DNA of 64,000 bases from contig JAUIBT010000007.1 in assembly GCA_030428255.1 (NCBI GenBank), positions 1-64,000 on the forward strand. The letters are read 5' to 3'. Below are positions 30,435 to 32,515 of this stretch, piece after piece. Made by a program: the position numbers and the translations under genes. Below the pieces are notes generated by a model. That model was given only the letters and a program-made list of their open reading frames with translations, did no database searches and was not told the origin of the DNA. Every line of letters begins with the position of its first letter. Within the stretch, counting starts at the first letter, position 1. This stretch comes from Alphaproteobacteria bacterium (GTDB lineage Bacteria; Pseudomonadota; Alphaproteobacteria; UBA7985; JAUIBT01).

Positions 30435-30485
30435 GGGTTAGCGCTGCTTAAGGGTTAGCGCCGCTTAAGGGTTAGCGCCGCTTGG
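30435..30485. repeat. Three tandem 17-base repeats at the 3' end of the YeeE/YedE gene
   Basis: The unit GGGTTAGCGCYGCTTAA occurs at 30435-30451, 30452-30468 and 30469-30485; the last copy ends in GG instead of AA. The third copy holds the stop codon and last codons of the YeeE/YedE gene (stop at 30472-30474), so the outer two are duplications of the gene end placed just beyond it. Confidence 0.88.
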
Positions 30486-31527
30486 GGAAGAAACGCAAAG
30501 CAACCGCCGAACCGGCGATGATCGCGCCAAACACCACCATTGATCCCGTCGACATCAGCGACATGCCCGTCAGACCTTGCCCCAAAGAGCAACCAAGCGC
30601 CGCAACACCGCCAAATCCCATTAGGATGGCTCCCAAGCCATAGCGCAGGGGTTCGGTCTCGCGCCCAAAGCCGTCGAAGTAGAGCCGACCGCCGATCAGT
30701 GCCGAGACAAAGCTGCCGCCCAAGGTGCCAAGCATGAGGCAGACGCCGTAGTTTGGGGCAATGCTGGAGGCAATGGTCACATACTGCAAAAGATTGGCCG
30801 CAGGGTTGGTGAAGTTCATCGACTGCGGTTGCAGCAGGCTGAAGCCATCATCCGCCAGGGAGGTGGTGATCCACCAGCCAAGGGGCACCATCAGCCCGAC
30901 CAGTAGGCCATAAACCAGATCACGGATATAGGCCTGTCGGCGCAGCGCAGCGATCACCACGAACAGCCCTAAGACCGCAATCAAAGCAACGGGGTAGTAG
31001 ACTGACAGGTCGGACAGCAGGGGTGCGGGGCTGGATTGCGCACCCAGCGACTGCAGCCAAACCCGCAAGGGCGACAGCACGCCAGTCATGCTGGCGTATG
31101 CGGTTAGCGAGAAAAGGATCAACACCCACAAGGAGCGCAGGTTCCCGCGGCTGGTCAAAACCGTGATGCGGGAAACACAGCCGCCTGCCAACGCCATGCC
31201 AAAGCCAAACATGAGCCCGCCGACCACGAGGGATATGGGAGCAAAGCGCGCCGTCTTTTGCAGAGCCTCTTCAGTATTGATCCAGCTCAAAGACTCAGCC
31301 AGTTGAGTGACCAGTATGGCAGCAATCACTGCGGTGAAAAATTGTGTGGTGCGACTGCCGGGACGGAACATCTCTGTACGTCGGTTTGGGGTTACCCATT
31401 CTTCGACGGCCGCCCTAAGGCAAAAGCCGCCCCGTTCAGCCGCGAAACCAAAGACAGCTCCAAGCGCGAGGGCGGAAATCAACACCCAAAACACGGCCTC
31501 GTCGAACGAGGGCAGACTTTCAAACAT
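30472..31527 (-). CDS. YeeE/YedE family sulfur-compound transporter
   Basis: An integral inner-membrane protein of about 351 residues, many hydrophobic helices, with the family's internal repeat. Each half has a conserved cysteine motif: GFAAERGGFCLRAA and GMALAGGCVSR in the first, and AALGCSLGQGLTGMSLMSTGS in the second. YeeE/YedE proteins move thiosulfate or related sulfur species through these cysteines. The start at 31527 (MFESLP) has AAGGA before it; a longer start at 31569 is less likely. It diverges from a cytochrome c gene across a palindrome fitting the SqrR/BigR box. Confidence 0.85.
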   Translation of the reverse strand: MFESLPSFDEAVFWVLISALALGAVFGFAAERGGFCLRAAVEEWVTPNRRTEMFRPGSRTTQFFTAVIAAILVTQLAESLSWINTEEALQKTARFAPISLVVGGLMFGFGMALAGGCVSRITVLTSRGNLRSLWVLILFSLTAYASMTGVLSPLRVWLQSLGAQSSPAPLLSDLSVYYPVALIAVLGLFVVIAALRRQAYIRDLVYGLLVGLMVPLGWWITTSLADDGFSLLQPQSMNFTNPAANLLQYVTIASSIAPNYGVCLMLGTLGGSFVSALIGGRLYFDGFGRETEPLRYGLGAILMGFGGVAALGCSLGQGLTGMSLMSTGSMVVFGAIIAGSAVALRFFPKRR

Positions 31528-31635
31528 TTGCGTCCTTCTCTTCGTTTTGTCATGCTCAACGGCACTCACCCCTTTGGTATCGCAAAGAGAGTGTTGGAAC
31601 GGCTAACCTCCCATGGCGCTACCTGGGGGCTTGCG

Positions 31636-31653
31636 TATTCGATTTATCGAATA
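31636..31653. promoter_or_regulatory. Perfect palindrome fitting the SqrR/BigR (sulfide-sensor) operator
   Basis: TATTCGAT-TT-ATCGAATA, 8-base perfect arms. It contains ATTC-N8-GAAT (31637-31652), the consensus I recall for the persulfide-responsive ArsR-family repressor SqrR. It lies in the divergent region between the YeeE/YedE transporter and the cytochrome c gene, next to a TATAAA-like box. Confidence 0.65.
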
Positions 31654-31720
31654 TAAAAGGGGAGGATTAACCCCGATTTTACCCGAAATTATCCCCTAAG
31701 ATATGAGGAGGAATACACAC

Positions 31721-32515
31721 ATGGCAAACAATAACTCACGACCAATCATAAGTGTAAACGGGGTGCTGGCCGCGGCCTTGCTGCTAGCCATCCTGTTCTG
31801 GGGGTTTCGCACGGTTCTTTTGAATGATCTGGGCGTATCGACCCACAACGCGGCTGGCGACGATCACGCAGCGGTTGTCCCCGTTGCGGCTGAAGCCCCC
31901 GCAGCCCAGCCCGAAAGCCCCAGCGTGCCCATGGCGGCGCCTCAGATCGCCGAGGTTGCAGAGCCTCAGAGTGAGTTTGCGCCAGACGGTTACACGGTGT
32001 TTGATCAAGGCGCCTATCAGCAATTGGCCGCTGCGGGTGTGAACTGGCAGGCCGACTACCAAGCCCCCGATTTTGACGCCGCACGCGGCGACGGCATGGC
32101 GGCTCCGATCCAGGTTGCCGATAGCAGCAACGAAACAAGCGAAGCCGAAGAGGGCGAAGAAGCCGAAGACGGGGGGGAGGCGAGCGAAGCAATGGCCGGA
32201 GACGCGGAAGCCGGGGCGAAGTTGGCCAAAAAGAAGTGTGGTGCTTGCCACAACTTTGGTGAAGGCGACAAGCACAAGACCGGCCCGACCCTGTACGGGG
32301 TCTACGGTGGCCCCGCCGCAAGCGTTGAAGGCTATACCAAGTACTCGACCGACCTGAAAGAGTGGGGCGGCGAGTGGACAGCCGAAAACCTGGATACTTT
32401 CCTGACCAAGCCCAAGGCGATGTTCAAGAAGACCCGTATGGGCTTTGCCGGCCTGAAAAAAGATGACGACCGCGCCAATGTCATTGCTTATCTAAAGAGC
32501 CTGAGCGCTGAATAG
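31721..32515 (+). CDS. Membrane-anchored c-type cytochrome
   Basis: A 264-residue protein from the ATG at 31721 (AGGAGGA at 31706-31712, ideal spacing). An N-terminal transmembrane anchor (VLAAALLLAILFWGFRTVLL) is followed by a long A/P/E-rich linker to about residue 160, then a class I cytochrome c domain at the C-terminus. Heme is bound at CGACH, with a likely axial Met in KKTRMGFAGLKK. This layout resembles the CycM-type electron carriers that link bc1 to oxidases, but the acidic linker is unusually long. It probably transfers electrons in the periplasm. It diverges from the sulfur transporter gene and may share its control. Confidence 0.87.
   Translation: MANNNSRPIISVNGVLAAALLLAILFWGFRTVLLNDLGVSTHNAAGDDHAAVVPVAAEAPAAQPESPSVPMAAPQIAEVAEPQSEFAPDGYTVFDQGAYQQLAAAGVNWQADYQAPDFDAARGDGMAAPIQVADSSNETSEAEEGEEAEDGGEASEAMAGDAEAGAKLAKKKCGACHNFGEGDKHKTGPTLYGVYGGPAASVEGYTKYSTDLKEWGGEWTAENLDTFLTKPKAMFKKTRMGFAGLKKDDDRANVIAYLKSLSAE

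Follow-up and report, generated by a model that had tools for sequence, protein, structure and literature searches.

The closest described systems are SoxR of Hyphomicrobium denitrificans, SqrR of Rhodobacter capsulatus and YgaV of Escherichia coli. PMC10451225 defines SoxR by the linkage of its gene to sox and describes a Cys50-Cys116 polysulfide bridge in the H. denitrificans protein. The sequence ATTC-N8-GAAT is quoted in PMC9774250 as the recognition sequence of R. capsulatus SqrR, and regulators related to sHdrR and SoxR have already been proposed (PMC12423496) to act on YeeE-family transporters. In Bradyrhizobium, thiosulfate electrons travel mainly via cytochrome c550 (CycA) to an aa3 oxidase (PMC5748708).

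In this study, we analyzed a 64-kb stretch of alphaproteobacterial DNA (the window), in which a palindrome separates a YeeE/YedE transporter gene from a cytochrome c gene. Judged from sequence comparison, this palindrome is very probably the binding site of a persulfide-sensing ArsR-family repressor, and it ties the transporter-cytochrome pair to the sox genes. The source genome (G000; 3.5 Mb, 58 contigs) was compared with the two other genomes of its genus, G001 and G002, by means of pattern searches and of the sequence surrounding their matches.

The palindrome and the divergent gene pair

In the 18-mer TATTCGATTTATCGAATA, two 8-bp arms form a perfect inverted repeat around a central TT (Table 1). 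A sequence-only reading had described it as a perfect palindrome containing ATTC-N8-GAAT; the core and the arms bear out this description, but the middle two bases are not self-complementary, because the arms flank TT. The core, at 31637-31652, is the sole copy of the motif in the window. The same reading had placed the site between a YeeE/YedE transporter and a cytochrome c, which agrees with the divergent PF04143 and PF00034 open reading frames on its two sides, and the SqrR consensus that it gave is the one quoted in PMC9774250.

Table 1. Features of the window and further operator sites in the source genome
Feature	Contig	Position	Strand	Evidence or remark
yeeE1, YeeE/YedE-family (Sulf_transp) transporter, 351 aa	window	30472..31527	-	PF04143, 1.3e-51
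Putative cytochrome promoter	window	31631..31657	+	TTGCGT (31631-31636), TATAAA (31652-31657), 15-nt spacer
Predicted SoxR/SqrR-type operator, TATTCGAT-TT-ATCGAATA	window	31636..31653	.	sequence, held-out matrix, sister-genome conservation
Class I cytochrome c, N-terminal membrane anchor, one CxxCH, 264 aa	window	31721..32515	+	PF00034
soxX sites, two	C3	upstream of soxX		exact ATTC-N8-GAAT
soxB site, one	C3	upstream of soxB		exact ATTC-N8-GAAT
soxR/soxC site, one	C10	between ArsR gene and soxC		exact ATTC-N8-GAAT
pmp/pdo sites, two	C40	between pmp-type YeeE half-transporters (pmpAB) and persulfide dioxygenase		
soxT2 site, one	C36	upstream of second full-length YeeE		exact ATTC-N8-GAAT

The operator lies 109 bp upstream of the yeeE1 start, which was taken at ATG 31527 (the listed open reading frame opens at GTG 31569). 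On the other side, promoter-like elements of the cytochrome gene extend into it; the ATG of that gene (31721) is preceded by AGGAGG, and the TTGC-T and ATATAAAA flanks of the operator are kept in G002. A sigma-70 consensus scan reported no promoter at the operator and was thus silent on TTGCGT and TATAAA, which is why we list the cytochrome promoter as putative.

The yeeE1 protein is 82% identical to its G002 orthologue, and in a tree of 41 YeeE proteins these two formed a long-branch lineage of their own. Assignment of yeeE1 to SoxT1 or SoxT2 was rejected because the tree placed it apart from both reference groups; the C36 paralogue grouped with reference SoxT2 (support 99/99). Models and structures of TsuA matched yeeE1 weakly, the model matches falling below the cut-off. 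The cytochrome is of the cy/c552/c550-like type, with cytochrome cy (6xkw) and c552 (3m97) as its nearest solved structures in the PDB. It matched the CycA model weakly (72 bits, cut-off 240), and it has a 61% identical orthologue in G002 and homologues at 45-48% in G004 and G006.

Significance, conservation and regulon of the predicted operator

Under dinucleotide shuffling, 0.74 copies of ATTC-N8-GAAT were expected by chance in the 64-kb window, and 56 of 100 shuffles contained at least one copy. The motif count was therefore rejected as evidence, and the significance of the site rests on a held-out matrix, on sister-genome conservation and on the regulon. The shuffle probability of finding the motif inside the 192-bp intergenic region was 0.008.

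We built a symmetric weight matrix from 21 sites at seven sulfur-gene promoters in the three genomes of the genus, with the window site and its G002 orthologue excluded from the training set. The window site scored 33.9 bits, and the runner-up among all positions in the 64 kb reached 4.4; the scan was run on the given strand, which suffices because the matrix is symmetric. When only the positions outside ATTC and GAAT were scored, the window site ranked top among all sites compared (16.7, versus 6.2 for the orthologous site in G002). Matches outside the regulon mostly had negative non-core scores, the positive exceptions being those on C44 and at C22:75138; the soxT2 site, a regulon member, also scored negatively. 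Among 4352 palindromic combinations of half-site and spacer, only ATTC with a spacer of 8 matched all five other G000 promoters as well as the window site, a result that serves as a consistency check and not as an independent test, since those promoters were found partly through the motif. The outcome is an operator model for this lineage that has been checked on held-out sequence.

In G002, the operator occupies the same place in the orthologous intergenic region and lies within its best conserved stretch, the ribosome-binding region of the cytochrome gene aside. Immediately after the transporter-cytochrome pair of that genome comes soxS, and after it soxXYZAB, which has sites of its own. The pair is thus part of a sox cluster in the sister genome and not an isolated sulfide-response locus. 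In G000, soxXYZAB lies on a separate contig and does not adjoin the pair; no orthologue of the pair was found in G001. In G006, which belongs to another family of the order, the 45% cytochrome homologue adjoins soxR and has a one-mismatch site upstream, and the 48% homologue in G004 has a similar one-mismatch site. The adjacency in G002, together with these homologues, indicates that the cytochrome belongs to a sox setting in the order. On G006 contig C404, sites (L183:1508 and 3297) were also seen beside the cytochrome c-soxR genes, upstream of a hemA-like (5-aminolevulinate synthase) open reading frame and of a rhodanese/pmp-like group.

The search of G000 for further sites returned 25 matches, against 5 for a reversed-pattern control, which is a weak control. 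When the surroundings of the matches were read, eight of the 25, the window site included, were found at sulfur genes (Table 1). SoxX, SoxA, SoxB and SoxC pass the curated NCBIfam cut-offs, and the C40 persulfide dioxygenase is similar to the MBL portion of Blh and scores 401 bits against that model, below its cut-off of 625. Exact sites also stand at the orthologous sulfur promoters of G001 and G002, and all three genomes carry a copy between the ArsR gene and soxC. The reactive-sulfur control proposed by the sequence-only reading thus gains support from the motif at the sox, pmpAB, persulfide dioxygenase and soxT2 promoters. No site within one mismatch was present in the 7 kb read around a cytochrome paralogue on C33, and two sox regions of Rhodobacterales (Paracoccus and Rhodobacter), taken as positive controls, contained no exact ATTC-N8-GAAT. 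We examined 80 YeeE loci in other genome records and found an exact site in the 450 bp upstream of only 5; the arrangement of transporter and site is therefore not general.

Three further groups of matches were observed. The motif lies between trmL and petABC (bc1 complex) in each genome of the genus (L019:4139, that is, G000 C22:75138; L170:5164 in G001; L155:3881 in G002), where its GAAT half shares bases with the start codon of trmL; the conservation may thus have a different cause. It is also found in all three upstream of an M20 amidohydrolase gene (L026:4629, that is, G000 C44:40628; L176:908 in G001; L177:3231 in G002), with poor matrix scores in G001 and G002 and with a small DUF1476-like open reading frame on the opposite side; DUF1476 we take to be the F1Fo ATPase zeta subunit. 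A good-scoring site precedes a pntA-like gene (NAD(P) transhydrogenase subunit alpha) in G001 (L175:2817) and G002 (L178:3509), and no exact match was seen there in G000.

The candidate regulator

The sequence-only reading had noted that no sqrR-like gene lies in the window and that the regulator would act from elsewhere. Consistent with this, the window contig contained no ArsR match, and the genome search, a test that the proposed operator survived, yielded a single clear member of the SqrR/BigR/SoxR/YgaV group of ArsR proteins (self-match 3.6e-88, next best 9.8e-4). Its gene, on C10 (154987-155403; L010:8988-9404), is divergent from soxC-soxD, and the linkage to soxC recurs in G001 and G002. 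The best PDB matches of the protein were YgaV (1e-17) and SqrR (1e-15), with HlyU also among them. It passes the HTH_metalloreg model (78.1 bits, cut-off 55) and falls short of the NCBIfam BigR model NF040642 (66.1 bits, cut-off 155).

Because the gene is divergent from soxC and other sites stand at sox genes, the regulator is best called SoxR, with a role in thiosulfate oxidation, and not a regulator of sqr; it also has the sox linkage by which SoxR is defined. The SqrR/BigR label given earlier thus holds for the operator and the class of mechanism but probably not for the name. The regulator acting on the operator is therefore likely a SoxR-type sulfane-sulfur repressor.

The first conserved cysteine (Cys41 in SqrR, Cys50 in H. 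denitrificans SoxR) corresponds to Cys68, a residue shared by every aligned sequence. The second conserved cysteine, located in the last helix (SqrR Cys107, H. denitrificans SoxR Cys116), is absent from the regulator in all three genomes, which have Leu134 or Met instead and carry Cys130 (-4) and Cys137 (+3) around the canonical position (L010, L134, L135). The canonical cysteine is kept by relatives that belong to a different family in the order. The idea that the displacement is wholly unprecedented was rejected, as a SoxR of Paracoccus ferrooxidans has the +3 cysteine only. With the second cysteine displaced, the published Cys50-Cys116 bridge geometry cannot simply be assumed for the regulator, which is a natural case for testing whether sensing strictly needs two cysteines in that geometry.

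Proposed mechanism and comparison with known systems

Drawing on the models for H. denitrificans SoxR (PMC10451225) and SqrR/YgaV (PMC9774250), we propose by analogy that a homodimeric SoxR-type ArsR repressor, encoded on C10, would bind the operator when reduced, that is, when oxidisable sulfur is absent, and would repress the cytochrome gene and probably the transporter gene as well. Cytoplasmic sulfane sulfur would lead to cysteine polysulfidation, upon which SoxR would leave the operator. The transporter and the cytochrome would then be induced along with soxXYZAB, soxCD, soxT2, pmpAB and the persulfide dioxygenase gene. The role of the transporter would be the uptake of a sulfur species, and the anchored cytochrome would serve as electron carrier between the periplasmic Sox enzymes and a terminal oxidase. 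We consider it highly likely that such a SoxR-type operator, repressing the cytochrome and probably the transporter and allowing their co-induction with the sox regulon, explains the locus as a whole; control of the transporter by the same operator is the less certain part.

The alternatives differ in how much of this they would change. If the operator served the cytochrome gene only, yeeE1 would have a separate promoter and regulation. The site abuts the promoter-like elements kept in G002, and the homologous cytochromes of G004 and G006 have their near-match sites without this transporter alongside, both of which favor this reading; the divergent pair nevertheless shares one short intergenic region, and this arrangement is kept in G002, so that we regard exclusive service to the cytochrome as somewhat unlikely. 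A strict SqrR/BigR system, in which the pair would belong to a sulfide-stress or detoxification switch and serve sulfide handling in place of lithotrophic thiosulfate oxidation, would account for the identity of the operator with the SqrR consensus and for the motif at BigR-like targets (the Blh-similar dioxygenase and PmpAB). This reading appears very unlikely, given that the sole clear homologue falls below the BigR cut-off and is encoded divergently from soxC, that half of the sulfur-gene sites stand at promoters of sox enzymes and that in the sister genome the pair stands next to sox.

Several families of transcription factors could bind a palindrome of this size, and one of these could in principle occupy the site. 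The motif is, however, the published SqrR site and recurs between the ArsR gene and soxC throughout the genus, which makes another family highly improbable. That the palindrome is a functionless product of chance would agree with the expected motif count but is contradicted by the held-out matrix score and by conservation, and we consider it scarcely credible. Beyond the SoxR-type reading preferred here, a wider claim would be that in this uncultured genus SoxR senses sulfane sulfur through a second cysteine that has moved to C130 or C137, and that its regulon extends past the sox enzymes to electron transfer. It would then take in the sulfur-dedicated anchored cytochrome c, a YeeE outside the SoxT1 and SoxT2 groups and, possibly, the transhydrogenase and the bc1 complex. 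We offer this extension only tentatively and regard it as rather unlikely.

Compared with Bradyrhizobium c550 (PMC5748708), the window cytochrome is likewise a class I cytochrome c and shows the weak match to the CycA model, whereas its membrane anchor and the SoxR-type operator on its gene set it apart. By analogy, we infer that it may have a c550-like role as electron carrier, and an anchored cytochrome c made together with Sox suggests a candidate answer to the question of where Sox electrons go. Similar to SoxT1, SoxT2 and TsuA (PMC11582611), yeeE1 belongs to the YeeE Pfam family in its full-length form of approximately 350 aa, and it resembles SoxT in its sox linkage in the sister genome; it differs in its long-branch lineage, the true SoxT2 being the C36 paralogue.

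The regulator shares with H. denitrificans SoxR (PMC10451225, PMC12423496) the sox linkage, the ArsR family and the first conserved cysteine, and the targets of that protein, among them sox genes and a SoxT transporter of the YeeE type, are similar to those predicted here. In contrast, the second cysteine is non-canonical in our regulator, and the targets given in the main text of these papers include neither such a cytochrome c nor the yeeE1 lineage. R. capsulatus SqrR and E. coli YgaV are alike in the ATTC-N8-GAAT operator (PMC9774250) and are both among the nearest PDB sequences, but the gene context here is sox and the second cysteine is displaced. The switch is of a known kind, in which the transporter lineage and the displaced SoxR cysteine are the uncommon elements, and an anonymous transporter-cytochrome pair now has its place in a thiosulfate-oxidation regulon.
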